Assembly: GCF_001307765.1 (NCBI RefSeq)
Contig: NZ_LKBA01000006.1
Coordinates: 586,001 to 650,000, forward strand
Length of the DNA stretch: 64,000 bases
Origin: Aliiroseovarius crassostreae
GTDB taxonomy: Bacteria; Pseudomonadota; Alphaproteobacteria; Rhodobacterales; Rhodobacteraceae
Direction of reading: 5' to 3'
Below are positions 23,752-41,677 of the stretch, piece after piece; within the stretch, counting starts at the first letter, position 1; each line of letters starts with the position of its first letter. The notes below the pieces were generated by a model. It did no database searches and had not been told where the DNA came from. It was given only the letters and a program-made list of their open reading frames with translations. The position numbers were made by a program, and so were the translations under genes.

Positions 23752-24942
23752 TCATACCGACAGAATTTTTGTTTCGGCTTCTGCGTTCAGCTCGGCCAAC
23801 TTATTGTAAAAAGCATCAACCGCACCCTGTGCAGTAGCGGCAAAATCCAGGAGACGCTCTTCCATGCCCTCGCTGACTTCGCGCGCGCCAGCCTCGCCAA
23901 CTGCACGAGAGACATCCTGAACGAATTTGCATACCGGGAACCTGACGTCGCCGAATTTCTGAAGGGCATCCTCAACCTGGAGCGGACCAGATAGCAGGCG
24001 CGCCAGAATTATGGCGTCCTGCATCGCCATGGCACCGCCTTGCCCCATGAACGGGGTCGAGGCATGCGCAGCGTCACCGATGAGCACGACACGGCCCCGA
24101 TGCCAGGGCAAGGGTATCTTGACCTCTTCGACGGCGGTGAAGATGATTTCGGATGTCTCATTCAGACCGTCCAGAAATTGACTCGCAGGGCCTGCAAACT
24201 CTGCAAAGCGCGACCGCATGGTAGCGGACCATGTTTCCTTGGGGAAAAACATGCCTTCTTCTTCTTTGACCGTGCCGAACGTATACAACAGGTCTTCACT
24301 GATCGGCATGACCCCAAACCGCTTAGCGGGCCCCATCATCATGATCTTGTCGGTCAGATCTGCGGGGCGTTCGTGGACAGAGCGCCATACGCCAAACCCC
24401 GAATAACTTGGCTGAATATCGATTCCAATCTGTGCGCGTGTGGACGACCGCAGGCCGTCAGCACCGATCACCAGATCATAGCTGACTTCGCGGCCATCCG
24501 AAAAGGTGACATCGACCTGATCACCTTTCTGGCTGATTGACGCAACTGCGGTCCCAAGATCGACCGGAACGGCGAGCTCTTCCATCCGGGTGGCCAAAAC
24601 CCGGTGCAACTCAGCCCGTTTCATCCCAACGATTGCGGGGATCGCACCGTCAGCGGCAGTCGGGTAAACGGTGTTCACAATGGGCTTTCCGAGGTTGTCG
24701 TAATAGGCGTTGACCCCGCCGGGAATAGCGAAACCTGCCTCTAGTATTTCGTCCAGCACCCCCAAGTCGTTCAGAACTTCCAACCCGTTGCTGTAGATGA
24801 AGATCCCGGAACTGTGGAACGCCCATTCAGCCTGTTTCTCGGCGATCCGTACCTTGTGCCCTTCTTTCGAAAGAGCGATCGCTGCAGCACAGCCGCCAAT
24901 TCCACCACCAACGATCAGTATATTCATCTGAGGTTTCGTCAT
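23752..24942 (-). CDS. FAD-dependent aromatic-ring monooxygenase
   Basis: This 396-residue group A flavoprotein hydroxylase has the three family motifs: GxGxxG in LIVGGGIGGCAAAIALSK, DG in DLVIGADGLRSSTRAQ and GD in VVLIGDAAHASTPFMGQGG. Such enzymes use NAD(P)H and O2 to hydroxylate, and sometimes open, aromatic or heteroaromatic rings. It is the last gene of a minus-strand operon after a complete TRAP transporter and a NicC-like monooxygenase. The paired monooxygenases suggest two successive hydroxylations of an imported ring compound. Its substrate is not predictable. It starts at MTKPQMNILI with no upstream alternative. Confidence 0.9.
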   Translation of the reverse strand: MTKPQMNILIVGGGIGGCAAAIALSKEGHKVRIAEKQAEWAFHSSGIFIYSNGLEVLNDLGVLDEILEAGFAIPGGVNAYYDNLGKPIVNTVYPTAADGAIPAIVGMKRAELHRVLATRMEELAVPVDLGTAVASISQKGDQVDVTFSDGREVSYDLVIGADGLRSSTRAQIGIDIQPSYSGFGVWRSVHERPADLTDKIMMMGPAKRFGVMPISEDLLYTFGTVKEEEGMFFPKETWSATMRSRFAEFAGPASQFLDGLNETSEIIFTAVEEVKIPLPWHRGRVVLIGDAAHASTPFMGQGGAMAMQDAIILARLLSGPLQVEDALQKFGDVRFPVCKFVQDVSRAVGEAGAREVSEGMEERLLDFAATAQGAVDAFYNKLAELNAEAETKILSV

Positions 24943-25062
24943 TTGGTTTTCCTTTCTGGATTCGGATGTCTTCGACCAGGCAGCCCCCCTTTCCAGAGGA
25001 CCGCAATAAAACTGGTTTAAGACGTGCGTATCAAGCTATCCGTCGGGCCCTGTCCGAGCGGT

Positions 25063-26379
25063 TTATCGGAACATCGTTTCTACAGGCCAGATCACGAGCT
25101 GCGGAAAGAAGAACAGGATCAGGATCGCCAGGATGTCACACAAGATAAAGGGCGTCGCCGCACGGTAGATGTCTTTCATCGTGGTGCCGGATGGCGCGAC
25201 TGCTTTCATGACAAAAAGCGCACCTCCTAGCGGAGGCGATGTTGAACCGGTTTCGATTGCAACCAGATACATCGCCGCAAACCAGATTGGATTGAAACCG
25301 AACTGGGTCACGACGGGAATGAACACCGGCAGGGTGATCAGCATGATCGGCAGCGGTCCCATAAACATGCCGAGGATCACAACTGAGGTAATCATCAGCA
25401 GCACGACCGACGACGGACCAATATCGGTGGATACGATAGCGTTCACCATCCCATAGGTGGCCCCGGTAAATGCCAGCAACTGAGAAAATGCAACCGCACC
25501 GGAGACAATCAACAGAACCATTACGGAAATGTTGGCGCTTCCAAACATTGCCTTAGAAAAGACATTCCATGTCAACCGGCGCTTGGCTGCAGCCAGCGCA
25601 AGGGTTGCAACGGCTCCGGTCGCCGCTGCTTCGCTGGGCGTGGCAATCCCCATGAAAATCACGCCAACCACCGCAAAGACGACGATCGTGAGAGGCAGGA
25701 TGTTTGTCGCCGTGGCGTAAAGTTTCTCCCCCATCGGGACAGGTTCGACATCAAACGACGGTGCAACGTCCGGTTCGACCGTACAGCGGATGTAGATGTA
25801 TGCAGTGTAGATGACCGCCATCAACAAACCGGGCACGATAATCCCGATCAGGATCTTTCCGATGGAAAGCTCGGCAACAACGCCCAGTACAACCGCAAGC
25901 GAACTTGGCGGGATCATAATCGCAAGCCCTGCAGACCCCAGGATCGGACCAAGAGACATCGGCTTTTTATAGCCGCGCTTTTCCATCTCGGGCACCAAAG
26001 TCGACCCCAAGAGCGCGATAGAACCCATCGAGTTCCCGGTCAACGTTGAAAACAGAACGCCGCCACCGACGGCCATGAATGCCAGTCGACCACGCAATTT
26101 TCCAAACCATTTGTCCAGCGTATCCATCAAATCGATGGCTATGCGCGACTGGAACATACCTTCGCCCATGATCATGAAAAGAGCGATGGGCACCAACGTG
26201 AAGCTGGAAATGGAATCTGCGGTGTTAATAACCAGCTGTTCAACCCCTGCAAGCCCACCGAGAAGCACGTAGGCGCCAACCAGATTGACGACCAGAAAGG
26301 AGAAAGCTACGGGCAATCCCATAATCATCAAAAACAGGAGCGAAGCTACAACCAGCGCGATTACGCTATACCATTCCAT
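25063..26379 (-). CDS. TRAP transporter large permease (DctM type), second system
   Basis: This membrane protein of about 438 residues has the DctM fold. It starts MEWYSVIALVVASLLFLMIM at the ATG two bases after the small permease stop; the 22 extra codons upstream are inside that gene. Landmarks are IALFMIMGEGMFQSRIAIDL, GNSMGSIALLGSTLVPEME and GIATPSEAAATGAVATLALA. It is only distantly similar to the large permease at 16-17 kb, so the two systems carry different substrates. This one sits inside the aromatic catabolic operon and probably imports its starting compound. Confidence 0.93.
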   Translation of the reverse strand: MEWYSVIALVVASLLFLMIMGLPVAFSFLVVNLVGAYVLLGGLAGVEQLVINTADSISSFTLVPIALFMIMGEGMFQSRIAIDLMDTLDKWFGKLRGRLAFMAVGGGVLFSTLTGNSMGSIALLGSTLVPEMEKRGYKKPMSLGPILGSAGLAIMIPPSSLAVVLGVVAELSIGKILIGIIVPGLLMAVIYTAYIYIRCTVEPDVAPSFDVEPVPMGEKLYATATNILPLTIVVFAVVGVIFMGIATPSEAAATGAVATLALAAAKRRLTWNVFSKAMFGSANISVMVLLIVSGAVAFSQLLAFTGATYGMVNAIVSTDIGPSSVVLLMITSVVILGMFMGPLPIMLITLPVFIPVVTQFGFNPIWFAAMYLVAIETGSTSPPLGGALFVMKAVAPSGTTMKDIYRAATPFILCDILAILILFFFPQLVIWPVETMFR

Positions 26380-26381
26380 AA

Positions 26382-26882
26382 TCAGGTCCTCACGTCGTGC
26401 AGCGCGTCGACGCCCTGCCGGAAAAACTGAAACGCCATCAGGCACATACCCAAGGGAAGCGCTGCGGTGATCCAGAAGCTTTGTGGTGCCATCACAGTGG
26501 CTTCACGTACACCGGTTTCAATCTGATCCAGAACCACCCGAACGCCAACAATGGTCATGACGAGGCAGGCAGCGGTGCCGATCACGGCATTGAAAAGCTT
26601 TGCAAAAATCTTCAATCCGCGGCCAAGGTGATCGTAGAGGATGTCCAACATCACATGCATGTTCTTTTCCAGAAGATAGGGCGCGCCCAGAAAAGTAATG
26701 AACAATAGCGAGTATTCGCTCACTTCGATGACCCAAAGGCGAGACGTGCCAAGCATTGCCCGCGAAACGACCTCGATAAAGACGATAGCCGTGATGAAGA
26801 AGAGAATTACAGCGCCAGCAATTGCGCAGATCAGGTTGATCTGGCTGAACAGGCGCTTGGTCGTGTCATAGATATGAAGCAT
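26382..26882 (-). CDS. TRAP transporter small permease (DctQ type), second system
   Basis: This 166-residue membrane subunit has four hydrophobic spans. The DctQ signature appears as SRLWVIEVSEYSLLFITFLG and then YLLEKNMHVMLDILYDHL. It lies between the binding protein and the large permease in the minus-strand operon, two bases ahead of the latter. It is expected to form a permanent complex with the large permease in the inner membrane. Confidence 0.92.
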   Translation of the reverse strand: MLHIYDTTKRLFSQINLICAIAGAVILFFITAIVFIEVVSRAMLGTSRLWVIEVSEYSLLFITFLGAPYLLEKNMHVMLDILYDHLGRGLKIFAKLFNAVIGTAACLVMTIVGVRVVLDQIETGVREATVMAPQSFWITAALPLGMCLMAFQFFRQGVDALHDVRT

Positions 26883-26951
26883 AGGGATACCAGCAATTGT
26901 TGGGTGGAACCGGGTTTACGCCCAGTTCCACAGGTTTCTTCGACCAAGGCC

Positions 26952-27926
26952 CTAGTCAACCAGCATCGCGCGCAACTCGGCTGCCAGTTCTTCACCGGCA
27001 TTCTCGGCGATCACCGACCAGGCGGCGTCAATCGCGATCTTCCGGTACAGGGCGGTTTCCTCTTCAGAGAGGTCGATCCTTTGGAACCCTGCGGCCTCCA
27101 TAGCGATGGCACTGGCGGCAACCTTTTCGGCCCAGATCTGCTCGATCCGAGGGGACAGATCGTCGCGAACAAAGGTGATCAGACGGCTTTGCAGGTCTTC
27201 AGGCAGTTCGTTCCAGCTCTTCTCATTGACCAAAATTGGGAAGGCCGCACGATAGACACCGGGATACACAACGGCAGAGATGACGCCCTCGAACTGCTTT
27301 TCGGCATCAATCGGGCCCTGCATAAACCCATCAATGGTGCCGCGTTCCAGAGCAGTATAGATTTCGCCAATCGGCAGAACGATCGGCGTTGCGCCCAAAG
27401 CCTCGATCAATGGCACCAAAGTCGGGAAAACCCGAATACGCTTGCCCTTGAGGTCTTCCAGTGACGAAACTGGCTCTTTCAGATAAATCAGAAAGCTCAG
27501 GTCGGTTGCCGGAACCTCTCCAAGATACACCAGCCCTTTTTCGGCATGAATTTCTGTCATACGCTCATGATAGTCGGTCGCCGCGATCTCATCGTAAGTC
27601 TTGAAAGACATATTGAGCGTCGACGAGCTTGGGATCAGGCCCGAGTAATAGCTGGGGCTGGTGAAGGTCATGTCGATGGCGCCGTTGCGAACCGCCTCAG
27701 CCTGCTTAAACGGGGGCATGACCTCAGGACCGCCGCGCCAGTTAATCTTGATTTCGTCGGCAAACTCCCGGTTGACCTCATCAACGAAGACATGGAAGCC
27801 GGCCGCAATGCTCGCTTGCTTCGGGGCAAGACTGACAGCGTTCAACTTGATCTCGTCGGCAGCAGCGACAAACGGCAGGGCCGCGAAAATCGCACCTAGC
27901 GTGATTTTTTTCAGAAATGGTTTCAT
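26952..27926 (-). CDS. TRAP transporter substrate-binding protein (DctP type), second system
   Basis: This periplasmic receptor of about 324 residues has a standard Sec signal peptide MKPFLKKITLGAIFAALPFV ending in AAA. Typical segments include YLKEPVSSLEDLKGKRIRVF, with the carboxylate-binding arginine, and ERGTIDGFMQGPIDAEKQFE. I use the ATG at 27926, which follows GAGGAG; the longer frame reads into the upstream monooxygenase gene. Its ligand is presumably an aromatic or heteroaromatic acid, inferred from the operon. Confidence 0.92.
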   Translation of the reverse strand: MKPFLKKITLGAIFAALPFVAAADEIKLNAVSLAPKQASIAAGFHVFVDEVNREFADEIKINWRGGPEVMPPFKQAEAVRNGAIDMTFTSPSYYSGLIPSSSTLNMSFKTYDEIAATDYHERMTEIHAEKGLVYLGEVPATDLSFLIYLKEPVSSLEDLKGKRIRVFPTLVPLIEALGATPIVLPIGEIYTALERGTIDGFMQGPIDAEKQFEGVISAVVYPGVYRAAFPILVNEKSWNELPEDLQSRLITFVRDDLSPRIEQIWAEKVAASAIAMEAAGFQRIDLSEEETALYRKIAIDAAWSVIAENAGEELAAELRAMLVD

Positions 27927-27949
27927 TGAGTTCTCCTCCTCAGAACTAC

Positions 27950-29074
27950 TTAGAGTGTGACGCTCCAGGCATTGTATCCATATACCCAGTCCGCGTTGCC
28001 CTGGCCCTTCATCCACTCATTCGCCAGCGAGTTTTCCTGAATCTTGGCCGTGCGGGGTTTGCGTTCCGCCTCGTATTTCTCAAGCGCGGCTGCAATGTCA
28101 GCTTTTTCCGCGCCCTCCAGACAGCGCGCAAGCACGACCGCGTCTTCAATTGCCATACACGCGCCCTGCGCCATAAATGGCACCATCGGGTGGGCTGCAT
28201 CTCCCATGATCGTGGCGCAGCCTTTCGCCCATTTCGCCATCGGTTCGCGCACATGCAGGGCGGATTTCGTCACCTTGGCGCAGTTGGCCAGCAGCGCCTG
28301 CGCATCCGGGTGGAAATTCTGATACTCGGCGCGCAGTTCTTCAACATCGCCAGCCAGCGTCCAGCCCTCCTCGGTCCACCCATCCTGGGCGGTCGTCGCA
28401 AACACGAAGATCTCTTTGCCCAGCGTAAGCGGAAAGGTCACGATCTGCTTTTCAGAGGTTTCCCCCCACCACTTGGTGAAAGCGTCCGCATCCTTCAGGC
28501 CTTGCGCTTTCTCCAGAGGGAAGACTGCGCGATAGGATACGATACCGGTAAAGCGTGGATCGTCCTGCCCCCAGAGCGCTGCGCGCACAGCCGAGTGAAT
28601 GCCGTCTGCGCCGACAACCAGATCAAACGCGCGCGTCTCGCCATTGCCAAAGATGACGGTCGCGCCTTGGTCCGTGGTCTGGACATCGGCAACCGGCATA
28701 CCAAGGTGAATCGATTCTTGCGGCAACTGGCTCTGAAGTGAGGTCAAGAGGTCCGCGCGGTGAATGGTCAACTGAGGCGCGCCGTATTTTTCCTCGGCAG
28801 CGTCGCTCATCGGAAGGCGCGACGTTTCTTCTCCGGTTACACCGTCACGACTGATACGGAACGTCGGGCGCGCGGCAGACTTTCGAAGGTAATCTCCGAC
28901 ACCCAACTGATCGAGTGCGAAAACGGCATTTGGCGTCAGATTGATGTCGGCGCCAACACGGTTGAATGCGGACGCCTGCTCAAAGACGTCAACCCTGTGA
29001 CCCATTTTTCTCAGCGCGATCGCTGCCGAAAATCCACCGATTCCTCCACCACAAACGGCGATATGTAATGTCAT
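27950..29074 (-). CDS. FAD-dependent monooxygenase, similar to 6-hydroxynicotinate 3-monooxygenase (NicC)
   Basis: This 374-residue group A flavin hydroxylase has GGGIGGFSAAIAL, DLVVGADGIHSAVR and IMGDAAHPMVPFMAQGACMA motifs. From memory, several stretches parallel NicC of nicotinate-degrading pseudomonads: the SRDGVTGEETSRLP region, the AIEDAVVLARCLE helix and the ending DWVYGYNAW. NicC performs decarboxylative hydroxylation of 6-hydroxynicotinate. No nicotinate hydroxylase (NicAB) or dihydroxypyridine dioxygenase (NicX) is in view, so the substrate may differ. It is the first gene of the operon that continues into the TRAP system, with a promoter facing the IclR gene. Confidence 0.88.
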   Translation of the reverse strand: MTLHIAVCGGGIGGFSAAIALRKMGHRVDVFEQASAFNRVGADINLTPNAVFALDQLGVGDYLRKSAARPTFRISRDGVTGEETSRLPMSDAAEEKYGAPQLTIHRADLLTSLQSQLPQESIHLGMPVADVQTTDQGATVIFGNGETRAFDLVVGADGIHSAVRAALWGQDDPRFTGIVSYRAVFPLEKAQGLKDADAFTKWWGETSEKQIVTFPLTLGKEIFVFATTAQDGWTEEGWTLAGDVEELRAEYQNFHPDAQALLANCAKVTKSALHVREPMAKWAKGCATIMGDAAHPMVPFMAQGACMAIEDAVVLARCLEGAEKADIAAALEKYEAERKPRTAKIQENSLANEWMKGQGNADWVYGYNAWSVTL

Positions 29075-29105
29075 GTACCTTCCTTAACCCGTGAATGGTC
29101 TATAT

Positions 29106-29120
29106 TGAACAGTCTGTTCA
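29106..29120. promoter_or_regulatory. Palindromic operator TGAACAGTCTGTTCA between NicC-like gene and IclR gene
   Basis: Perfect seven-base arms flank a single central base. It lies 32 bp before the NicC-like start codon. The same GAACA-N3-TGTTC core occurs upstream of the cupin operon at 30555-30567. It is probably the IclR-family regulator's binding site. Confidence 0.65.
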
Positions 29121-29122
29121 CA

Positions 29123-29136
29123 TTGTGTGCACACAA
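29123..29136. promoter_or_regulatory. Second palindrome TTGTGTGCACACAA next to the IclR operator
   Basis: A perfect 14-base palindrome begins two bases after the GAACA-N3-TGTTC site. It could be a second regulator site or part of one composite operator. No copy was noticed at the cupin operon promoter. Confidence 0.5.
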
Positions 29137-29274
29137 ACAGTAAGTCAAGGAATTTTTCAGATTGCTCGCATCTGGCGGTACGAATTTCAAGAATGCAGTG
29201 GGAATGTCGTCGACTAGTTGCTAACCCTGAACATGATGGTCTAATCTGGTCCGATCAGAGAAAGTGGAGAACAA

Positions 29275-30063
29275 ATGTCCGGCGAAGCAGAGAATTCTTC
29301 AGGAGGCCCGGTGGAGCGTGCCGTCAAACTGTTACGTTTCATCGGAGAAGGAAATAGTTGCAGGAATCTTTCCCGGGCCTCTAAGGAACTTGCGATCAAC
29401 AGAACGACCCTGATTCGACTGATCCGCGCATTGGCAGACCACAACATGATCGAGGAAATTCAACCTGGCGCTGGCTACCGCCTGGGGCCAGGACTGATCA
29501 GCCTCGCAGCACAGGGCATTCATGGCCGGGACATTGTCCAAATGGCCCAACCCGTCCTCAGCGAACTGGTGGAAAAAACCGGCCTGTCCGCGCATCTGGG
29601 AATCCTTGACGGTACGGATATCGTCTATCTCAGCCGCGAGACACCCAACACGCATTTGGTCAGCAACGTGCGCGCCGGCTCGCGCCTGCCAGCGCATACA
29701 ACATCTATCGGCCGCGCGATTCTGGCGGAATTCAGCAAAGAGCACGTAACCAAACTCTACGAAGGCCTCGATCTTGGGCAAGTATCTGGGAAATCTCCTA
29801 AATCACTCGAAGAGCTACTTGATCAATGGGAAAACGACCGACGCCTTGGCTACGCATGGAGCGAAGGTAATTTTGAACACGGCATTGGTTCCTGCGCCGC
29901 CGTCATCTTTGACGGCACCAACAAACCCGCTGGCGGCCTGAACGTATCAGGTCCGCAAGACAGGTTTTCAAGCTCGGACAAAGCCGCGACAGATTCTATA
30001 AAACTTGCGATTGTCGAGGCCGCCAGAGAGGTCTCCATCGCACTAGGGTATGCGAGGCGCTAA
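29275..30063 (+). CDS. IclR family transcriptional regulator
   Basis: This 262-residue regulator has an N-terminal winged helix (about residues 12-75, with ASKELAINRTTLIRLIRALADHNMI) and the IclR effector-binding domain. That domain shows GLSAHLGILDGTDIVYLSRE, RAGSRLPAHTTSIGRAILAE and the C-terminal GLNVSGPQDRF. IclR proteins commonly control aromatic-acid breakdown in response to a pathway compound. It lies between the two catabolic operons, divergent from the NicC-like/TRAP operon and co-oriented with the cupin operon. Both operons carry the same inverted repeat, so it probably controls both. Confidence 0.93.
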   Translation: MSGEAENSSGGPVERAVKLLRFIGEGNSCRNLSRASKELAINRTTLIRLIRALADHNMIEEIQPGAGYRLGPGLISLAAQGIHGRDIVQMAQPVLSELVEKTGLSAHLGILDGTDIVYLSRETPNTHLVSNVRAGSRLPAHTTSIGRAILAEFSKEHVTKLYEGLDLGQVSGKSPKSLEELLDQWENDRRLGYAWSEGNFEHGIGSCAAVIFDGTNKPAGGLNVSGPQDRFSSSDKAATDSIKLAIVEAAREVSIALGYARR

Positions 30064-30597
30064 GCACTTTCCTCTCGGGTGTCCGGATCGAGACACCTCG
30101 GATATCCCCTCATCGGCGGCGTGCAGAATTTCAGATCAACCGTTTTTCTGCTGGCCAATTCTTCACGATGATTGCCGCCCCAGTGCTCGGTATCGGCCTG
30201 TCCGCAGGACGAACAGTCCTGGCTGAAACACCCCTCAACCACCGCCCTGCGCTTCGCCATATGAAGATCCCGCCGCCCCCTAGACGTCAAGCAGGCTTCA
30301 TGGCGCCCAAGCCCGAACAGCATCCCTAAAGCGCCCGACCTTTAAGCTAAGGCAGGGCAAAAGGCGGACACCGCGCAACATATCAGCGCTCCGCGCCCCC
30401 TTGCCTGCTTCATCCGTCATTGGGACCGAATTGCAGGGAATTGAGACCTCCGCCCAAATAAAGCTCCCAACATACCACGCTCAGTATTCTGTGCTCAATC
30501 ACGCCATCTCAAACCCCATTGACGGGCAATATAAAGTTGTGCTTTACAATATTCGAACACTTTGTTCATTATTGGACATACGACAAAGGAGATCATT
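30064..30597. other. Intergenic region of about 530 bp upstream of the cupin operon
   Basis: No gene is supported. An 87-codon minus-strand frame (30060-30323) is cysteine rich but resembles nothing I know. The right end carries the operator at 30555-30567 and a strong AAAGGAG ribosome binding site for the cupin gene. Confidence 0.5.
30555..30567. promoter_or_regulatory. Operator GAACA-N3-TGTTC upstream of the cupin operon
   Basis: GAACACTTTGTTC lies 31 bp before the cupin start codon and has the same arms, spacing and trailing A as the site at 29106-29120. This indicates common control of the two operons. Confidence 0.6.
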
Positions 30598-31140
30598 ATG
30601 ACTGCACCCGAAAAATTTCCGTCGATCGAACCCGGCGACGTCGAGATCCCGGAAGGCAAAACACTTGGCGAATGGATCGAAAGTCGCGTTGCGCGCTATG
30701 AAACCCGGACGCTCGACTGGAACGCCCTGAAGTTTCAAGCCGACCATGATCCCAAGTATAAGCGCGCTCAAATGCGCTATATCGGAACCGGCGCCACCGG
30801 CGTTAAGGCTGACGACAACGTCGTCCCGGCCGAGCATTTCACCTTCTCGACCATGGTCCTGCCCGCAGGTTGCGAAGGCCCTCTTCATATCCACCGTGAT
30901 GCCGAGGAAGTCTTCTTCATGCTGAAAGCGCACAAGGTGCGCCTGTTCGTCGAGCATGAGGGTGAGACCGTTGAAACCGTTCTGACCGAGCGTGACATCA
31001 TCTCGGTTCCGCCGGGAGTTTACCGTGGCCTGCGCAACGAAGGCATCGAAGAAGCCCTGATGTGCGTGATGATTGGCAATCCCAAGCCGGTGACCCCGAC
31101 CTATCCGGACGATCACCCTGTATCGAAACTCAAGCGCTAA
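30598..31140 (+). CDS. Cupin domain-containing protein
   Basis: This 180-residue single-cupin protein leads the seven-gene catabolic operon. Cupin motif 1 is GPLHIHRDAEEVFFMLKAHK, with HxH and Glu as likely metal ligands. Motif 2 is ISVPPGVYRGLRNEG, where the usual histidine is replaced by arginine, so the metal site may be incomplete. The ATG at 30598 follows AAAGGAG. Its role could be a small dioxygenase, isomerase or binding protein in ring breakdown; none can be chosen from sequence. It precedes the hydrolase gene by 14 bases. Confidence 0.85.
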   Translation: MTAPEKFPSIEPGDVEIPEGKTLGEWIESRVARYETRTLDWNALKFQADHDPKYKRAQMRYIGTGATGVKADDNVVPAEHFTFSTMVLPAGCEGPLHIHRDAEEVFFMLKAHKVRLFVEHEGETVETVLTERDIISVPPGVYRGLRNEGIEEALMCVMIGNPKPVTPTYPDDHPVSKLKR

Positions 31141-31154
31141 GGAGTGCTTCTGGC

Positions 31155-32000
31155 ATGGGGTCGAGCCTTGAAAAATCAGTCGGGCAATTCACGTATCTTG
31201 AACGTGAGGGTCTGGGCGTTCCCTTGGTTTTTCTTCATGGGATCGGCTCCAATGCCATGTCGTTTTCGGATATCCTGAGGCGGCTGCCAGATGGGCTGCG
31301 CGCAATTGCCTGGAACGCGCCGGGGTATCTGGATTCACAGCCATTAAGCAATGAGCATCCGCAAGCCGAAGACTATGCGGATGCTCTCGCCGACATGCTG
31401 GACCAACTGGGGGTGGCCGAGGCTATTCTGATTGGTCATTCACTGGGAACTCTGATAGCGGCAGCCTTTGCAGCAAAATATCCCCATCGGGTCAAGCAGC
31501 TCATTCTGGCTGCTTCCGCATGCGGTTATAGGGTTAAACCAGGCGAGGCGATGCCTGCCAACGTGATGGCGCGTATTGATGACCTGTCCCTTAAGGGGGG
31601 CGACGCCTTTGCGAAGGAACGGGCACCGCGTCTGGTATTTGAGCCTGTGCTCAATCCAGCCATTGTCGCCCGTATTGAATTCGACATGGCACGGGTCAAT
31701 CCCAAAGGTTACGCGCAGGCCGTATATATGCTGGCGGCAGGAGACCTTGAAGCGAGCTTGTCAGCAGTGACGGTAGACACCCGGTTCATCATCGGGATCA
31801 ATGATCGCGTCACACCGGAACAGCAAACACTACGTGCCGTAGCGGCATGCGCAAAAGTGGACGGCAAACCACCCGAGGTCGTCCGGATCGATCAAGCAGG
31901 TCATGCAGTGTACCAACAAAAACCGGACGAATTCGTTTCAGCGCTTTTGCGTATGGCTAATATCCAACAGGCGACTTTGGCCTCAGGAGAAAAAAAATGA
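31155..32000 (+). CDS. Alpha/beta hydrolase, possible ring-cleavage-product hydrolase
   Basis: This alpha/beta hydrolase of about 281 residues has the oxyanion HGIGSN motif, the nucleophile elbow LIGHSLGTLIAAAF (Ser), a probable acid Asp in IIGINDRVTPEQ and the catalytic His in DQAGHAVYQQ. The start at 31155 is preceded by GGAG; the upstream frame lies in the cupin gene. Its stop overlaps the dioxygenase start by ATGA. Next to an extradiol dioxygenase, the obvious proposal is hydrolysis of the C-C bond of a meta-cleavage product, but an ester or amide hydrolase such as NicD is also possible. Confidence 0.88.
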   Translation: MGSSLEKSVGQFTYLEREGLGVPLVFLHGIGSNAMSFSDILRRLPDGLRAIAWNAPGYLDSQPLSNEHPQAEDYADALADMLDQLGVAEAILIGHSLGTLIAAAFAAKYPHRVKQLILAASACGYRVKPGEAMPANVMARIDDLSLKGGDAFAKERAPRLVFEPVLNPAIVARIEFDMARVNPKGYAQAVYMLAAGDLEASLSAVTVDTRFIIGINDRVTPEQQTLRAVAACAKVDGKPPEVVRIDQAGHAVYQQKPDEFVSALLRMANIQQATLASGEKK

Positions 32001-32911
32001 CAGATCAAATCCCTGCTCTGAAGCTGCGCGGCATCGTTATGCGCGCACCAGACATCACCCAAACCATAGATTTCTATACAGAAATGTGGGGCCTGCGCGC
32101 CGAGAAGTCTGGCGAGGGTATCGTTTACCTCAGCGGAACCGGGTCCGAACCGTTCATCTATGGGCTGAAGGATTCCGACAGCTACGGCATCGAATACATC
32201 CACTTCGGAACCAATGATCGTGCGGACATGGACGCCCTTTATGCTCATGCAACTGCCAAAGGCGTTGCCACTGTGGCTGCTCCAGCAGAATTTGATGACC
32301 CGATCGGCGGCTATGGATTTGAGCTGCTGGACCCGGACAACCGGCGCATCCGCTTCACGACCGACCTGGAAATGCGCAAGACCGAAGACGTATTCGCCTA
32401 TCCGCGTAAAATTTCGCATGTCGTTTTGAATACGCCTGACATGGATGGCCTGCAAAAATTCTTTGAGGACACCCTTGGTTTCAAGGCAAGCGATTATTCG
32501 GCCGAGATGATGGTATTTTTGCGCTGCAGCAAGGACCACCATTCAATCGCGCTTGTGCGTGGCAAGTATCCGGCCATTAATCACGTTGCATTTGAGATGC
32601 CCGATCTTGATAGTTTCATGCGCGGCATCGGTCGGATGAAACAACAGGGACAGGTTCCCAGCTGGGGGCCCGGTCGCCATGGGCCCGGCAACAACCCGTT
32701 TGCCTATTTCGTGTCGCCATCAGGCTATGTGATCGAGTTCACCTCCGAACTGGCACAGATCGACGAGGAAAGCCACGTCGCACAAGTATGGTCACGCACT
32801 GACCCCGAAGCAATGGACCGCTGGATGACGGCAGGCCCGCCGACCACCGCACAGCGCACCATCATGGCCGGACGCCCCGATTTCGGCTTCCCTGAACTTC
32901 GCGAAGAGTAA
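31997..32911 (+). CDS. VOC-fold extradiol ring-cleavage dioxygenase
   Basis: This 304-residue two-domain type I extradiol dioxygenase would open a catechol-like ring next to the hydroxyls using Fe(II) and O2. The second domain carries the metal ligands: His in ISHVVLNTPDM, His in INHVAFEMPD and Glu in GYVIEFTSE. The WGPGRHGPGNN loop before the final strand is typical of catalytic members. It is translationally coupled to the hydrolase (ATGA) and followed by the SDR gene four bases on. The substrate is unknown. It is the clearest evidence that the operon degrades an aromatic ring. Confidence 0.92.
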   Translation: MTDQIPALKLRGIVMRAPDITQTIDFYTEMWGLRAEKSGEGIVYLSGTGSEPFIYGLKDSDSYGIEYIHFGTNDRADMDALYAHATAKGVATVAAPAEFDDPIGGYGFELLDPDNRRIRFTTDLEMRKTEDVFAYPRKISHVVLNTPDMDGLQKFFEDTLGFKASDYSAEMMVFLRCSKDHHSIALVRGKYPAINHVAFEMPDLDSFMRGIGRMKQQGQVPSWGPGRHGPGNNPFAYFVSPSGYVIEFTSELAQIDEESHVAQVWSRTDPEAMDRWMTAGPPTTAQRTIMAGRPDFGFPELREE

Positions 32912-32915
32912 TGTG

Positions 32916-33707
32916 ATGGATCTGGGGTTGTCTGGTAAAACGGCGGTGATCACGGGCGGATCATCCGGGATCGGATTAGCGACTGTGAAGCTGTTCCTAC
33001 AGGAAGGCGCGAATGTCGCGTTCTGCGCGCGTGGGGCCGAGCGGCTGAATGCCGTACATCGGGAACTTGCCGCCGAGTTTGGTGAAGAACGCCTTCTGTC
33101 GCAGGCCTTCTCGGTCCTGGACAGAAGTGAGGTGGACACCTTTGCCAAGGCCGTGCGGGATCAGTTTGGCGGCTGCGACGCGCTGATCACCAACGCGGGT
33201 CAAGGCCGAGTGTCGACCTTTGCCGACACCGAAGACGATGACTGGCGGAATGAACTGGACCTGAAGTTCTTCAGCCAGATCCTTCCTGTTCGTGCCTTTC
33301 AGGACATGCTTGTTTCAAGCGGTCAGGGGTCGATCACGGCGGTGAATTCCTTGCTGGCCTATCAGCCCGAACCGCACATGGTCTGCACCTCTGCAGCCCG
33401 CGCCGGGGTGCAGAGCCTTCTGAAATCGCTCGCAACTGAACTTGCGCCAAAAGTGCGCGTAAATTCGATTCTGATCGGCCTCGTGGACAGCCAGCAATGG
33501 CAGCGCCGTTTCGAGGCCCGTGAGGATCGCAACCAAACACGCGGCGAGTGGTTCTCAGCACTTGCTCGTAGAAAAAAAATTCCGCTGGAACGGCTTGGCC
33601 AACCTGAAGAGGCTGCACGTGCACTCGCCTTCTTGGCTTCTCCCTCCACCAGCTATGTGACCGGTGCTCAGCTCGAAATCTCGGGTGGTGTTTCGCGGTA
33701 TATCTGA
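32916..33707 (+). CDS. SDR family protein lacking the YxxxK catalytic motif
   Basis: This short-chain dehydrogenase-fold protein of about 263 residues has an intact nucleotide-binding GGSSGIGLA motif and NAG (ALITNAGQG). The active-site serine region reads ITAVNSLLAY, but where YxxxK should follow the sequence reads MVCTSAARAGVQSLLKSL, with Thr/Cys and Arg instead of Tyr and Lys. The C-terminal part is normal (ASPSTSYVTGAQLEISGG). It may use another mechanism or act as a binding protein. ATG 32916 is preferred over the GTG one codon earlier. It sits between the dioxygenase and the ThDP enzyme. Confidence 0.9.
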   Translation: MDLGLSGKTAVITGGSSGIGLATVKLFLQEGANVAFCARGAERLNAVHRELAAEFGEERLLSQAFSVLDRSEVDTFAKAVRDQFGGCDALITNAGQGRVSTFADTEDDDWRNELDLKFFSQILPVRAFQDMLVSSGQGSITAVNSLLAYQPEPHMVCTSAARAGVQSLLKSLATELAPKVRVNSILIGLVDSQQWQRRFEAREDRNQTRGEWFSALARRKKIPLERLGQPEEAARALAFLASPSTSYVTGAQLEISGGVSRYI

Positions 33708-33723
33708 CAATCAGGACAGGACC

Positions 33724-35376
33724 ATGACGGAAACAGTAGGCTATCAGATTGCAAACGCGCTCGCGGATGCAGGCGTTAAAGCGATTTTTGGCGTAATCTC
33801 AATTCACAACATGCCAATTCTTGACAGCATTGCGGAACAGGGCCGCATTCGCTTCATTCCCGCTCGGGGTGAAGCCGGCGCCATGAACATGGCCGATGCC
33901 TATTCCCGCGTCTCCGGCGAAGTCGGCGTGGCCCTGACCTCGACCGGCACGGCCGCAGGTAACGCGGCGGGCGCACAGGTAGAAGCCCTGACCGCAGGCA
34001 GCCGCGTTCTGCACATCACGACGCAGGTGGACCGCCAATTCATGGACCAGGATCGCGCGGCCATTCACGACGTGCCGAAACAGCCCGAGATGCTGAAAGG
34101 GATTTCGAAATCCTACTTCCGCATCTGGGACGACAAATCTGCCGTTTCAACGGTTGAGGCCGCCATTCGCGCCGCGGTCACCCCGCCCGCCGGTCCTGTA
34201 AGCCTCGAAATCCCCGTGGATGTCCAGCGTCTGCCCGCCATCCAGGGGCAAAAGGCAATCATGCCCAAGCCGACGCGCCCTCAGGCGGATCCGGCTCAGA
34301 TTTCTGCGCTGGCCAAACTGGTGAAGGACGCCAAGCGCCCGCTGATCTGGCTGGGGGGCGGTGCGCGCGAAGCCTCTGCCCAGGCAGAGGAGCTGGTCGC
34401 GCGCGGATTTTGTGCCGTGACCTCGACGCAAGGCAGGGCCACCGTGGCCGAGGACAACCCGGCCACTCTCGGTGCGTTCAATATGACGCCGGAAGCGCAG
34501 GAGATTTATGCAAAATCGGACCTAATGATCGTGGTGGGATCGCGTTTGCGCGGCAATGAAACCCTGAACAACAAGATGGTGCTGCCCAAGCCTTTGATCC
34601 AGATTGACGCCGAGCCGACCCAGGGCGGGCGCAATTATCCGGTGGACATGTTCATTCACGCAGATGCTGGTCTTGCCCTGCAGGCGCTTCTGGACGCACT
34701 TCCCGCAAAGCTGGATGTCGACGCAAACCACATTCACGACATCTCTGTCGCACGTGCCAAATCCGAAGGGGCCTTGCGCGGTCGTCTTGGACCGTATCAG
34801 GTTGTCGCAGATAAACTGCTTGAGGTGATCCCAGAAGGCAAACACCCCTGGGTGCGGGATGTGACCATTTCGAATTCGACCTTTGGCAACCGATATGTGC
34901 AGATCGGCGCACCCAATCTGGGCGTTCATGCGCTTGGCGGAGGTATCGGTCAGGGGATCGCAATGGGCATCGGCGCGGCCGTCGCCTCGCCCGAAGCACG
35001 CACAGTGACCCTGCTGGGTGACGGTGGGTCCATGCTTGGCATTGCCGAACTCATCACCGCCGTCGATGAAGGACTGAACCTTGTCTACCTCTTGATGAAC
35101 GACAGCGCCTATGGCGTGATCGAAAACATCCAGGACGCTCAATATGACGGTCGCCGTCACTATTCTAAAATCAAGGTGCCCGACTTTGGTAAGCTGTGTA
35201 GCTCGATCGACCTGCCGCATATGAAGGTGGATACCATTGATGCTTTCAGAGCAGCCTTTGACGAGGCAATGGCAAAAACCGGCCCAGTTCTGCTGGAAGT
35301 CGACATGGTGAAAATCGGCCCGTTTGCCGAGCAGTTCTCGGGCCCTCCGGCCGGTGCTGCAGGAAACAAGGTGTGA
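33724..35376 (+). CDS. Thiamine diphosphate-binding enzyme, acetolactate synthase/2-oxoacid decarboxylase-like
   Basis: This ThDP enzyme of about 550 residues has the three-domain layout of the pyruvate oxidase/decarboxylase superfamily. The catalytic glutamate is in FIPARGEAGAMNMADAYSR. The ThDP motif is LLGDGGSMLGIAELITAVDE, ending in LLMNDSAYG. No regulatory subunit is adjacent, so it is unlikely to make branched amino acids. In this operon it could decarboxylate a 2-oxo acid released from ring cleavage to an aldehyde for the aldehyde dehydrogenase two genes on. Start chosen at 33724; the upstream frame lies in the SDR gene. Confidence 0.9.
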   Translation: MTETVGYQIANALADAGVKAIFGVISIHNMPILDSIAEQGRIRFIPARGEAGAMNMADAYSRVSGEVGVALTSTGTAAGNAAGAQVEALTAGSRVLHITTQVDRQFMDQDRAAIHDVPKQPEMLKGISKSYFRIWDDKSAVSTVEAAIRAAVTPPAGPVSLEIPVDVQRLPAIQGQKAIMPKPTRPQADPAQISALAKLVKDAKRPLIWLGGGAREASAQAEELVARGFCAVTSTQGRATVAEDNPATLGAFNMTPEAQEIYAKSDLMIVVGSRLRGNETLNNKMVLPKPLIQIDAEPTQGGRNYPVDMFIHADAGLALQALLDALPAKLDVDANHIHDISVARAKSEGALRGRLGPYQVVADKLLEVIPEGKHPWVRDVTISNSTFGNRYVQIGAPNLGVHALGGGIGQGIAMGIGAAVASPEARTVTLLGDGGSMLGIAELITAVDEGLNLVYLLMNDSAYGVIENIQDAQYDGRRHYSKIKVPDFGKLCSSIDLPHMKVDTIDAFRAAFDEAMAKTGPVLLEVDMVKIGPFAEQFSGPPAGAAGNKV

Positions 35377-35381
35377 TCGCC

Positions 35382-36206
35382 ATGAACAGACTGGGCATTA
35401 TCGGGTTTGGAGCGATTTCCCAATCGCTCATCGAGGTGCTGCGTGAGCAGGGCCAGACCTACAGTTCGCTTGCTCTGCTGGTTCTGCCAGAAAAAGAGCA
35501 AGAGACGCGGGTGAAAGCAGAGGCGCTTTGTGGCAAGGCGGTCCAGAATCTGGTCGTGACAGGAGATTTGGAAACCTTTCTTGAAACGCGACCAGAGCTG
35601 GTGGTTGAATGCGCGGGACACAGCGCAGTGTTAAAATACCTCAAGCCGATCTGTGACGCCGGGACAAACGTTGTTCTGGCCTCAATCGGTGCGCTGTCAG
35701 ACCCTGACCTTTATGATCTCGTTTGGGACGCAGCCCGCAACAGCCCCGCACAAGTTCAGCTTCCGGCCGGGGCAATTGGCGGTATTGACGTTCTTGCTGC
35801 GGCCCGTCTGTCCGGGATTACGTCTGTCGTCTATACAGGTCGCAAACCGGCAAATGCCTGGGCCGGCACACCGGCAGAGAAAAAGCTGAACCTGAACGAA
35901 TTGACGGAACCAACCGTCTTTTTTGAAGGGTCGGCACGCGAAGCAGCGCAGGAATATCCGAAGAACGCGAATGTCGCCGCAACGCTTGCACTCGCAGGGA
36001 TTGGCATGGATGATACTCAGGTGCGCCTAATAGCGGATCCAACCACAACCAAGAACACCCATGAGTATTCTGTGGTCTCGGGAGCGACGGAGTACTCGAT
36101 GCGCATGACCGGTAAGGCCTCGGCATTGAACCCCAAAACCTCAATGACGACTGTATACAGCCTCGCACGGGCCGTTCTGAACCAATCCGCAGCGATCGTA
36201 ATCTAA
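35382..36206 (+). CDS. Aspartate dehydrogenase-like protein (NadX family)
   Basis: This NAD(P)-dependent dehydrogenase of about 274 residues starts MNRLGIIGFGAISQSLIEVL (Rossmann GxGxxx). It has the family pattern VVECAGHSAVLKYL, VQLPAGAIGGIDVLAAARL and the catalytic histidine in NTHEYSVVSG. L-aspartate dehydrogenases interconvert aspartate and iminoaspartate/oxaloacetate. Here it lies in a ring-breakdown operon, not a NAD synthesis one, so an amino or imino acid formed from the substrate is a plausible target. A GTG at 35373 overlapping the previous stop is an alternative start. The ALDH gene follows 11 bases on. Confidence 0.88.
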   Translation: MNRLGIIGFGAISQSLIEVLREQGQTYSSLALLVLPEKEQETRVKAEALCGKAVQNLVVTGDLETFLETRPELVVECAGHSAVLKYLKPICDAGTNVVLASIGALSDPDLYDLVWDAARNSPAQVQLPAGAIGGIDVLAAARLSGITSVVYTGRKPANAWAGTPAEKKLNLNELTEPTVFFEGSAREAAQEYPKNANVAATLALAGIGMDDTQVRLIADPTTTKNTHEYSVVSGATEYSMRMTGKASALNPKTSMTTVYSLARAVLNQSAAIVI

Positions 36207-36217
36207 GGAGCAATTTG

Positions 36218-37702
36218 ATGAGTCAGGACTTCCCTGAAAACGAACTCTTTATCGGGGGCGAGTGGCGTAAGGGCCGCGGTGCTGAAATCCGGTCGATCTT
36301 CGCCGCTGAAAACACCGAGAACACCGTCATCAACGGGGCCTCGCAAGAGGATGTTCTAGTTGCGCTGGAGCGTGCGAAGGCCGCACAGGCCGATCCGGCA
36401 TGGGCGTTTTTGAAACCACATGAACGCGCTACTTATCTGTATCGAATTGCAGATGGGATTACCCGAAACATCGAAGAGATTTCCTGGCTTCAGTCGCGCG
36501 ACACCTCCAAAAGCCAACGCGAGGCGCGGGCGTTAGCAGCCTCTGCGGCAGCGACTTTCCGCTATTTCGGCGCCGTGCTGGAAACCTCAGACGATTTGCT
36601 TACGACCCCTCGGGGCGATTATCTGACCGCATCAGTTTATGAACCACTGGGTTTGGTCGGGGCAATCACGCCCTGGAATTCTCCGATCGCTTCTGATGCT
36701 CAAAAACTGGCCCCGGCGCTGGCAGGGGGCAATGCTGTCTTGCTGAAACCGGCCAGTTGGTCGCCGCTGGTTTCGCTGTATCTGGCCCGTATCGCGGAAG
36801 AGGCAGGGCTGCCCAAAGGCCTGTTGTCCGTTCTCCCCGGATCCGGGCGTGAGGTGGGCAATTTCCTGGTCGAACATCCTGATATTGACAAGGTAACATT
36901 TACCGGCGGAACCGCGACCGGGCGCAAGCTGGCGCATATCGCGGCCGAAAAACTCATGCCGATTTCACTGGAACTTGGCGGGAAATCACCCACCATCGTA
37001 TTCGACGACTGTGATATCGACCAGGCAATTGCGGGCATCATGTTCGGCATCTTTTCGTCTTCGGGCCAGTCCTGCATCGCAGGCTCGCGCCTGTTCGTTC
37101 AGCGATCAATCTACGACGAATTCGTCTCTCGCCTGGTCCAGGCGACCGAGGCCCTGAAAACCGGCCATCCCTTTGACGAAAATACCCAGGTATCGTCGAT
37201 GGTGCATCACGACCATCGCAGCTCGGTCGAAGACTACATCGCCCTGGCACGTTCCGAAGGAGGGGAAATCCTCACCGGAGGGGGGCGCCCCGACAATCCA
37301 GCCTTGGCAGAAGGGGCCTATCTGCAACCGACGATCATCGCCGGTCTCGATAATACGGCGCGCACCTGTCGGGAAGAGATCTTTGGCCCGGTTCTTGTGG
37401 TCATGCCCTTCGACGATGAAGCCGATGTCATCGCGCAGGGGAATGATAATGAGTACGGGTTGGCCTGTGGTATCTGGTCGAAAGATGCGCCGAAATGCTG
37501 GCGTATCGCACAGGCCATTCGTGCGGGGACCGTTTGGATCAACACCTACAAGGTATTCTCGATCTCCACCCCATTTGGTGGTGATGGCGCAAGTGGTATG
37601 GGACGTGAAAAGGGTCGCGATGGATTGCGTGCCTATCAGCGCCAAAAATCGATCTATCAGGACCTTACGGGGCTTCCACACCCTTGGGCGCGTATAGGAT
37701 AG
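36218..37702 (+). CDS. Aldehyde dehydrogenase, end of the catabolic operon
   Basis: This NAD(P)-dependent aldehyde dehydrogenase of about 494 residues has VGAITPWNSPIASDAQKLAP, the glutamate in SLELGGKSPTIVFDD and the catalytic cysteine in FSSSGQSCIAGSR. It is typical of the hydroxymuconate-semialdehyde/betaine-aldehyde-like branch. The ATG at 36218 follows an AAGGAG site overlapping the AspDH stop. It ends the plus-strand operon and probably oxidises the aldehyde made by the ThDP enzyme or a ring-cleavage semialdehyde. The following DNA decays into IS relics. Confidence 0.92.
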   Translation: MSQDFPENELFIGGEWRKGRGAEIRSIFAAENTENTVINGASQEDVLVALERAKAAQADPAWAFLKPHERATYLYRIADGITRNIEEISWLQSRDTSKSQREARALAASAAATFRYFGAVLETSDDLLTTPRGDYLTASVYEPLGLVGAITPWNSPIASDAQKLAPALAGGNAVLLKPASWSPLVSLYLARIAEEAGLPKGLLSVLPGSGREVGNFLVEHPDIDKVTFTGGTATGRKLAHIAAEKLMPISLELGGKSPTIVFDDCDIDQAIAGIMFGIFSSSGQSCIAGSRLFVQRSIYDEFVSRLVQATEALKTGHPFDENTQVSSMVHHDHRSSVEDYIALARSEGGEILTGGGRPDNPALAEGAYLQPTIIAGLDNTARTCREEIFGPVLVVMPFDDEADVIAQGNDNEYGLACGIWSKDAPKCWRIAQAIRAGTVWINTYKVFSISTPFGGDGASGMGREKGRDGLRAYQRQKSIYQDLTGLPHPWARIG

Positions 37703-40370: not shown

Positions 40371-41303
40371 CTAACTGCCGCGACATAAGCTCACCGATAC
40401 GGTTGATCTTGTGATCCGAGAGGCGCTCAAGCCCCATGTGAGCCAGACTTCGGGATCGACGTTGTTCATCTTGGCGATCTCAATGAGGGTATATGCGATG
40501 GCGGCAGCTTTGCCACCACCGACGGCCCCCATGAAAAGGTAGTTTTTGCGTCCAAGAGTGATGGGGCGGATCAAGCGCTCACATATGTTTTTGTCCAGCT
40601 CCAAGCGCCCATCACTGAGATAGGCGCGCGCCTTGGGCATGCGGTTCAATGCATAGCTGATCGCTGCGGCCAGTTTGATTTTGCCCGAGATTTTAGGGAG
40701 TTGGGTTTGCAGCCAGGCTTCCAACTCATTGAAGATTGGCTTCGCCTTCTCCTGGCGCAGGGCACCGCGCTCTTCAGGGGATTTGCCCTTGGCTTCCTTC
40801 TCAACCGCGTAAAGCTCCGCAATCTGCCTGATGGCGTGTTTTGCGATATCCGAGCCGGTACGCTCGAATTTGCGGTGAACATGCACCAAACAGGCTTGTT
40901 CATCGGCTTTGTCTTTACCAAACAGCCCGTTGCCCCCCGCATAGCCATCTGCATACACAGTGCCGGTATAGCCCGAGAGGTGATTGAGTAGGTGTTCGCC
41001 CTTGCGGTCCGTGCTGAACTGATACCACGCGCAGGGCGGCACGTCTCCACACCACGAACGTTCATCGCGCACATAACTCCAGAGCCGGGCGGTTTGGATT
41101 TTCTTGGGATTGAGCCTGCTTTGCAGTTTGCCGGACATGTCATCGACAAAGAGTGCGTGGCCCGCCCTGACCAGTTTGCCGACATGATCGGCCAGCGGCG
41201 TCTCATGCTGGTAGGGTAGAGATTGAACCTCTGCCATCAAACGCTCGCTGACAGCACGAGGCTCAGCGGGGTCTTCTGGCAAGGATTTGAGGGCATTCAA
41301 CAT
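40371..41303 (-). pseudogene. IS66 family transposase (TnpC) remnant
   Basis: The frame retains IS66 TnpC hallmarks: KIQTARLWSYVRDER, RKGEHLLNHLSGYTGTVYAD, ACLVHVHRKFER, and near the end LELDKNICERLIRPITLGRK and YLFMGAVGGGKAAAIAYTL. The N-terminal zinc-finger and first catalytic region are missing or fused by deletion (MLNALKSLP joins a late part). A single-base shift near 40435 moves the conserved C-terminus (LERLSDHKINRIGEL) out of frame. It is inactive. Confidence 0.85.
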
Positions 41304-41379
41304 GCGCGGCTTATACCGGAATGCGTTTCTGGATGGAATGCAAAACCGCGCCAAAGCCCATGTTTTTTCGGGCTTTATC

Positions 41380-41454
41380 CTATCCCACCGTGGTAGGCGT
41401 CCAGGTCTTCTGCGGCATACGCCAGTCGATACCTTCCAGCAGTATCGACAGCTG
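41380..41454 (-). pseudogene. IS66 TnpB C-terminal fragment
   Basis: The minus strand encodes QLSILLEGIDWRMPQKTW and a short tail before a stop, the usual C-terminus of IS66 accessory protein TnpB. It lies upstream of the TnpC remnant in the correct order, so both derive from one IS66 element. Confidence 0.7.
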
Positions 41455-41675: not shown

Positions 41676-41677
41676 CA

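Follow-up and report, generated by a model that had tools for sequence, protein, structure and literature searches.

The catabolism of kynurenate by Pseudomonas, described by Hayaishi, Taniuchi and others in 1961-63, is known as cell-free biochemistry, and to our knowledge its enzymes were described without genes. No genes assigned to this pathway were found in the open-licence PMC text that was searched. The conversion of kynurenate to glutamate, alanine and organic acids by pseudomonads is mentioned in an excerpt of PMC11354673, and the enzymatic formation of 7,8-dihydroxykynurenate from kynurenate is named in the title of Taniuchi and Hayaishi 1963, as cited in PMC5610271. Here, a cluster of 13 genes (positions 23752-37702) was analysed in a 64,000-nucleotide stretch of the Aliiroseovarius crassostreae genome (contig NZ_LKBA01000006.1, positions 586,001 to 650,000), the whole of which is called the window. 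We consider the chances about even that this cluster encodes a catabolic route for kynurenate and xanthurenate, N-heteroaromatic acids of the 4-hydroxyquinoline-2-carboxylate type. The data behind this reading are the gene content, gene order and conservation, the active-site residues, the parallel entry modules and a recurrent palindrome.

The cluster shares its proposed intermediates with the Pseudomonas pathway, and the glutamate and alanine formed there fit 2-oxoglutarate and aspartate/oxaloacetate. After ring cleavage, the old pathway reportedly proceeds through a reduction, a decarboxylation and an aldehyde oxidation, which match the short-chain dehydrogenase/reductase (SDR), the thiamin diphosphate (ThDP)-dependent enzyme and the aldehyde dehydrogenase (ALDH) of the cluster. 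The flavin entry and the end of the route, formed by a cupin, a hydrolase and the NadX protein, are proposed here. The meta-cleavage pathways (mhp, hpa, bph) have an FAD hydroxylase or Rieske oxygenase, an extradiol dioxygenase and an alpha/beta hydrolase in common with the cluster, which carries the SDR, ThDP enzyme, ALDH, NadX and cupin instead of a hydratase and an aldolase. Neither the 2-oxopent-4-enoate hydratase nor the hydroxy-oxovalerate aldolase family of the mhp type was among the matches shown for the 13 genes. One flavin monooxygenase (FMO2) is related to NicC of the nicotinate (nic) pathway, from which the cluster differs by its extradiol dioxygenase of the VOC superfamily and its ThDP and ALDH route and, according to the first-pass annotation, by the absence of NicAB and NicX.

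Gene content and the conserved core

As the first-pass annotation of this DNA had listed them, all 13 genes were present as open reading frames (ORFs) with profile matches to the expected families, in two tight operons with the gene of an IclR-family regulator between them (Table 1). The left operon is transcribed from the minus strand in the order FMO2, DctP, DctQ, DctM (a TRAP transporter) and FMO1, with intergenic gaps of 2 to 120 nt. The right operon follows the IclR gene on the plus strand in the order cupin, alpha/beta hydrolase, VOC, SDR, ThDP, NadX and ALDH, with gaps of -4 to 16 nt. In an NCBIfam scan of ten proteins, three exceeded curated cut-offs, namely the SDR (PRK07062), the ThDP enzyme (PRK07064) and NadX (PRK13303).

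The locus had been described as a 13-gene supercluster. The linkage of its operons proved to be conserved, but a fixed unit of 13 genes did not: the unit is a six-gene core plus the cupin, with a variable entry consisting of FMO2 and TRAP, or of a Rieske oxygenase, SDR and ABC importer, FMO2 and Rieske often being found together. A scan of genome contigs confirmed 101 relatives, of which 80 were kept, and the 57 loci of at least 18,800 bases were counted. The search for co-occurrence across genomes, suggested by the same annotation, revealed the core hydrolase-VOC-SDR-ThDP-NadX-ALDH complete and in the same order in 54 of the 57 loci, the remaining three showing five genes in the test used. 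These loci are not independent: several belong to Nitratireductor, Mameliella and Maritimibacter, and L017 and L018 look like the same contig.

Relatives of the VOC with 63-66% identity were located on plasmids of Nitratireductor, Vibrio nigripulchritudo, Pseudosulfitobacter and Paracoccus, where the six core genes stand in the same order; the next relatives fall to 43%. On one V. nigripulchritudo plasmid (L003, 15745-17419) the ThDP gene is annotated in two pieces, and the plasmid of another strain gives a single full-length match. The cluster is a patchy, accessory trait, since the VOC was found at E<=1e-80 in 6 of 149 genomes of the family, its own included. The ThDP family was found at E<=1e-150 in 9 of 299 genomes of the phylum, again with its own.

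Gene sets with relatives of the ThDP enzyme (42-52%) were also found in Caballeronia, Novosphingobium and Acinetobacter baumannii, where they are annotated, and in Burkholderia and Cupriavidus, where they are unannotated and were read by similarity. The core is shared by many marine bacteria, and the related sets come from soil and human-associated ones. These sets share a Rieske oxygenase, a helix-turn-helix (HTH) protein, SDR, cupin, hydrolase, second SDR, ThDP, NadX, ALDH and VOC. All ten families were recorded in L130-L133 and L135, with ferredoxin and reductase genes in some, and they occur in a beta- and a gammaproteobacterial record alike; on another Caballeronia plasmid (L134), the genes found together are limited to Rieske, HTH, ThDP and VOC. 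Their VOC belongs to another subfamily, MFS or porin genes adjoin, and no TRAP/FMO module was seen in the stretches read. Between Caballeronia and the window, the SDR, ThDP, NadX, ALDH and cupin are 45-61% alike and the hydrolase 34%. In A. baumannii, adjacent genes of aspartate dehydrogenase, aldehyde dehydrogenase and acetolactate synthase have values of 2.2-2.4 in a mucin table (excerpt of PMC5757984), and a group of genes with neighbouring tags (cupin, aspartate dehydrogenase, aldehyde dehydrogenase) has log2 values of 2.0-2.3 with vitamin B12 (excerpt of PMC12892962). Judged by their order and names, both groups would be the genes found in A. baumannii L135.

Residue conservation was determined from aligned homologues (87-97 sequences, some loci being the same place fetched twice), the motif roles being taken from general knowledge. 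Kept in at least 97% of the sequences were H141, H196 and E247 of the VOC (2-His-1-Glu, type I extradiol; 89 sequences), E50, G432-D433-G434 and N459 of the ThDP enzyme (87 sequences), and S96, D217 and H250 of the hydrolase (87 sequences). The N225-x-H227 motif of NadX was kept as well; in the alignment with 1j5p and 2dc1 both N-x-H and NPKTS were retained, and the score against the PRK13303.1-2 model was 281 bits at a cut-off of 226. Judged from sequence, these residues are consistent with a functional extradiol dioxygenase, a ThDP decarboxylase and an aspartate dehydrogenase. We proposed that the ThDP enzyme is a 2-oxo acid decarboxylase, and the retention of aspartate dehydrogenase features by NadX suggests that the route yields a C4 imino acid. 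The hydrolase, for which no solved relative was found at E<=1e-15, was proposed to be an amide or C-C hydrolase.

The SDR had been noted as odd, and its catalytic Tyr and Lys are indeed lost. Judged by their distance from Ser146, Thr159 and Arg163 occupy the places of Tyr and Lys in the YxxxK motif; they are kept in 96 of 97 and 97 of 97 homologues, respectively, so the protein has no classical Ser-Tyr-Lys centre; the cofactor motifs TGxxxGIG and NAG are present. Since 2,4-dienoyl-CoA reductase, a C=C reductase, likewise functions without the motif Tyr, it was proposed that the SDR with the altered centre may be a C=C (enone) reductase. In P. aeruginosa PAO1, we take a related SDR and the aspartate dehydrogenase to be neighbours (PA3507 and PA3505), accompanied by ThDP, ALDH, cupin, hydrolase and ABC genes. 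The cluster SDR is 58% identical to that PAO1 protein (Q9HYA2; PDB 3lf1/3lf2), whose PDB title names an "atypical" catalytic centre. The PAO1 L-aspartate dehydrogenase has been characterised, according to a reference title in PMC5554190. An excerpt of PMC9732424 gives PA3505 as required in three of four host-like media under the label of nicotinate/nicotinamide metabolism, which was not used as support.

Table 1. Genes and candidate operator sites of the cluster, numbered from the first letter of the window
Feature	Position	Strand	Match
FMO1, FAD monooxygenase	23752-24942	-	PF01494, E 5e-35
DctM, TRAP large permease	25063-26379	-	PF06808, E 3e-68
DctQ, TRAP small permease	26382-26882	-	PF04290, E 4e-24
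DctP, TRAP solute-binding protein	26952-27926	-	PF03480, E 1e-33
FMO2, NicC-like FAD monooxygenase	27950-29074	-	best PDB match 5eow (NicC), E 6e-79
Palindrome GAACAGTCTGTTC, candidate IclR operator between FMO2 and iclR	29107-29119		
IclR-family regulator	29275-30063	+	PF01614/PF09339
Palindrome GAACACTTTGTTC, candidate operator of the core operon	30555-30567		
Cupin (cup1)	30598-31140	+	PF07883, E 7e-8
Alpha/beta hydrolase	31155-32000	+	PF00561, E 3e-23
VOC extradiol ring-cleaving dioxygenase	31997-32911	+	PF00903; HpaD/C23O models below their cut-offs
SDR with altered catalytic centre	32916-33707	+	PRK07062, above cut-off
ThDP-dependent enzyme	33724-35376	+	PRK07064, above cut-off
NadX, L-aspartate dehydrogenase	35382-36206	+	PRK13303 models, above cut-off
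Aldehyde dehydrogenase (ALDH)	36218-37702	+	BADH and HpaE models, E<=4e-137, under their cut-offs

Entry modules and the shared palindrome

The Rieske module comprises the Rieske oxygenase with its SDR, a reductase and an ABC importer. In the stored stretches of the 57 loci, 16 carried Rieske only, 15 FMO2 only, 26 both and none neither, giving Rieske in 42 and FMO2 in 41. The SDRup, HTH protein, FAD reductase and flavodoxin accompany the Rieske oxygenase in all 42 loci, and TRAP genes are present in 12 of the 15 loci with FMO2 only. All 42 Rieske loci encode a homologue of a 100-residue HTH_62 protein (L002, 8437-8739, the locus in which Pfam was checked), often with a gene for a pentapeptide-repeat protein nearby.

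When the loci with FMO2 only were read more widely, a Rieske block was found near the FMO1 or TRAP genes in six of the 15 (L021, L024, L025, L028, L030 and L031), that of L030 lying on another contig which ends in TRAP genes. Hence, at most 9 of the 57 loci are of the FMO-only kind, one of which (L016) comes from a genome with a 77% Rieske relative on another contig. An extended reading of 11 genomes, the own-genome stretch L172 being left out, showed a sulfatase gene directly beside dctM in nine loci, with fmo1 on its other side in eight of these (not in L171). A convergent operon cup2-HTH-Rieske-SDRup adjoins in those nine, behind a second IclR gene. The other two loci (L169 and L170) have cup1, and no such block was present in the stretch read. 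The two modules are thus parallel inputs. The sulfatase of the nine relatives (L161-L168 and L171) suggests that sulfate esters of aromatic acids may also be used; the genome of the window has only a 30% sulfatase relative, located elsewhere.

Among seven genomes examined for a Rieske oxygenase of the cluster family at E<=1e-20, none was detected in the window's own genome or in those of L014 and L081; L013 gave only a 34% relative, L016 the one mentioned above, and L021 and L041 the expected ones. As these three genomes, on which the genome-wide absence rests, combine the core with FMO2 and no Rieske, it may be that FMO2 can stand in for Rieske plus SDR in at least three genomes. Such a replacement would fit one entry acting on a hydroxylated acid and the other on the acid itself.

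The designation of FMO2 as NicC-like held, its best solved relative being 6-hydroxynicotinate 3-monooxygenase, followed by tropone 2-monooxygenase (8rqh); the protein is 64% identical to the FMO of a Nitratireductor Rieske cluster and was proposed to hydroxylate a phenolic substrate. The nearest solved relatives of FMO1 were 3rp6 and then 2-methyl-3-hydroxypyridine-5-carboxylate oxygenase (MHPCO). Counting the window, 10 of the 14 FMO-type genomes have FMO1 at 61% or more, and the genome of L016 has a 39% relative; in ten chosen Rieske-type genomes FMO1 was not found at E<=1e-60. A 51% relative in the Rieske locus L035 speaks against a distribution confined to FMO/TRAP loci. FMO1 thus seems to be an accessory that goes mostly with the FMO/TRAP module, in an uncertain role.

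The palindrome GAAC-N5-GTTC occurred 149 times in 85 sequences (1.63 Mb), compared with 6-45 occurrences for seven control palindromes of the same build. Sites in the upstream zone of a listed gene numbered 98, in 62 of the 85 sequences, against 1-4 for the controls; they preceded HTH (36), FMO2 (32), hydrolase (15), cupin (10) and other genes (5). In 22 of 25 loci the iclR-fmo2 interval contains a form with at most one mismatch; the 25 include the window and second copies (L170/L014, L171/L021, L126/L024, L128/L028 and L017/L018). The window has five exact sites, two of them at the promoters (Table 1). As a plain match, the motif shared by the two promoters did not exceed shuffled sequences, and its five matches are three places, two of which were counted on both strands; the case for a shared motif rests on the palindromic form and on its recurrence over loci. 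We settled on this pattern with the window and some relatives already in view, and the loci are related; its recurrence is strong but not independent evidence. Since the palindrome recurs before the core, flavin and Rieske operons, these probably share one regulon. The IclR protein, whose scores against the BhcR and PcaR models fell short of their cut-offs, is presumed to bind this candidate operator.

A candidate route and its alternatives

In the proposed scheme, xanthurenate, the most likely acid, would be imported by the TRAP transporter and hydroxylated at C7 by FMO2, resulting in 7,8-dihydroxykynurenate; in related genomes, the same compound would be formed from kynurenate by the Rieske oxygenase and its SDR. 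The VOC would cleave the catechol ring (8-8a cut), the altered-centre SDR would reduce the double bond of the side chain, the ThDP enzyme would remove CO2 (C8), and the ALDH would oxidise the aldehyde to 5-(2-carboxyethyl)-4,6-dihydroxypicolinate. The cupin, as a beta-diketone dioxygenase, would open the remaining ring between C4 and C4a. The hydrolase, placed last and acting on the resulting amide, would release 2-oxoglutarate and aminofumarate/iminosuccinate, and NadX would reduce iminosuccinate to L-aspartate. The operons would be controlled by IclR through GAAC-N5-GTTC. The substrate is inferred from chemical fit; the order of the steps, the functions given to the SDR, cupin and hydrolase, and the binding of the palindrome by IclR are likewise proposals.

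Atoms balance in all ten proposed steps, the carbons adding up to CO2 + C5 + C4, and iminosuccinate corresponds exactly to C2 of kynurenate with its carboxylate, the ring N, C3 and C4. The kynurenate route needs an NAD(P)H reductase, a 2-oxo acid decarboxylase and an aldehyde dehydrogenase; the SDR, ThDP and ALDH families, with roles assigned by family only, are present in conserved order. As gene families, the hydroxylation is provided for by Rieske plus SDR in 42 of 57 loci and by FMO2 in the window. Members of the RidA family are imine deaminases, and a small gene of this family (one member was scanned) recurs in nine loci, as found by clustering of flanking ORFs with antisense frames masked. 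A 110-residue protein with no Pfam match (L060, 4001-4333, and eight relatives) is encoded in the same nine loci. Tryptophan dioxygenase was more frequent in cluster genomes (36 of 47, from 48 with L085 left out) than in family genomes (69 of 149; p 4e-4), a comparison confounded by kinship and genome size. Of the functions assigned in the first-pass annotation, uptake, ring hydroxylation, extradiol cleavage and the release of a 2-oxo acid and an amino or imino acid were supported as family readings, and C-C hydrolysis was not established. The substrate, which it had left open, is proposed here. Its statement that the gene set matched no pathway known to it agreed with the open-licence PMC text, in which no described gene set like the cluster and no paper describing it were found.

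The cupin was proposed to be the ring-opening dioxygenase. Its cup1 form has a weak match to quercetinase QueD, and HxH...E(E) and RAQMRY were kept in seven aligned cup1 and cup2 proteins. A cupin match was present in 18 of 18 cluster genomes, four with cup1 at 90-100% and 14 with a match of 30-34%, of which the six checked were cup2, 71-87% like that of Nitratireductor; one match (G735) has an internal TGA, and the search for cup2 covered cluster genomes only.

Several observations weigh against the kynurenate/xanthurenate assignment. The substrate is a candidate chosen by chemical fit. In the cupin (cup1), the position taken for that of the third His ligand (motif 2) of many cupins is occupied by Arg144, which sets the protein apart from the three-His metal cupin dioxygenases; its predicted model is poor (pLDDT 60), with weak fold matches. 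The Caballeronia (beta-type) VOC is only 33% identical to that of the window over 123 residues, so it may act on a different ring. Of the five exact palindromes in the window, three (1300, 16093 and 19932) lie outside the cluster, and the scheme gives no firm place to FMO1, the sulfatase or the pentapeptide protein. Tryptophan dioxygenase was found in none of 110 neighbourhoods, nor in the window or its own genome; other kynurenine genes (aminotransferase, formamidase) were not searched. A quinaldate feeder, which would have supported a quinoline substrate, was dropped, the molybdenum hydroxylase beside the L134 cluster being nearest to 4-hydroxybenzoyl-CoA reductase and not to quinoline oxidoreductase.

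Two other leads, mimosine/3-hydroxy-4-pyridone (pydA) and homarine, gave no match to the gene set in literature listings. Riboflavin/lumichrome catabolism also involves a thiamin enzyme, a Rieske and an extradiol enzyme; it was set apart by its compounds, which differ in the description consulted.

The same architecture could serve another N-heteroaromatic acid, such as a pyridine-, indole- or other quinoline-carboxylate, the ring N of which would likewise end in iminosuccinate and aspartate; we regard this as possible, though somewhat doubtful. NadX needs only an N-C(COOH)-C-C(=O) unit, the nearest relatives of FMO2 and FMO1 include a hydroxynicotinate hydroxylase and a pyridine-ring oxygenase, respectively, and the VOC diverges between clades. 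However, a monocyclic pyridine would hardly employ extradiol cleavage, reduction, ThDP decarboxylation and ALDH in addition to the cupin and hydrolase, and the Rieske/FMO pair would call for a carbocyclic ring open to dihydroxylation.

A carbocyclic aromatic acid (phenolic, or a sulfated phenol), with NadX only assimilating ammonia into oxaloacetate from the route, is an unlikely substrate. Benzenoid routes typically employ extradiol, FMO and Rieske enzymes, and the sulfatase between dctM and fmo1 points the same way, but the hydratase and aldolase families are missing from the matches, NadX within the ordered core of 54 of 57 loci would be odd for an N-free substrate, and the RidA-like gene recurs. 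A merely accidental proximity of the two operons, each with a substrate unrelated to the other's, is highly improbable: the core and the FMO module are separate transcription units and FMO2 is absent from the stored stretch in 16 of 57 loci, yet the palindrome precedes both operons in the window and across loci, and FMO2 or Rieske stands near the core in 57 of 57.

Surroundings and significance

An IS66-family transposase gene (40374-41765) is close to the right end of the cluster, and a single open frame at 38690-40333 joins a PAP2 phosphatase domain to an SMP-30/strictosidine-synthase-like domain, an unusual pairing. A second TRAP transporter (DctM and DctP, 16093-19036) adjoins a glutathione S-transferase gene (19515-20372) about 5 kb from the cluster. 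Further to the right, at 44135-47528, a large serine recombinase (PF00239/PF07508) is followed by two RepB/ParB-like genes; close to them are a tRNA-Ser gene (49283-49372) and, on the minus strand, a Shedu-like SduA_C gene (47731-48696). By their content, these genes look like an integrated element with a defence gene.

Returning to kynurenate and xanthurenate, we tentatively suggest, at slightly less than even chances, that the cluster is the gene set for the enzymes described in the 1960s, with Rieske and flavin entries, an enone-reductase SDR, a new ring-opening cupin and a NadX that catches iminosuccinate. The route would then operate in marine alphaproteobacteria, and a related version of it in A. 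baumannii and P. aeruginosa. If this is true, genes would be provided for a classical tryptophan-derived pathway, the presence of an aspartate dehydrogenase that many bacteria keep inside a catabolic operon would be explained, and the solved SDR Q9HYA2 would gain a reaction. Bacterial removal of kynurenate and xanthurenate, which are host signals, would also be predicted. Should a different N-heteroaromatic acid prove to be the substrate, the common core and the recurrent palindrome still define a testable regulon with which the beta- and gammaproteobacterial sets can be compared.

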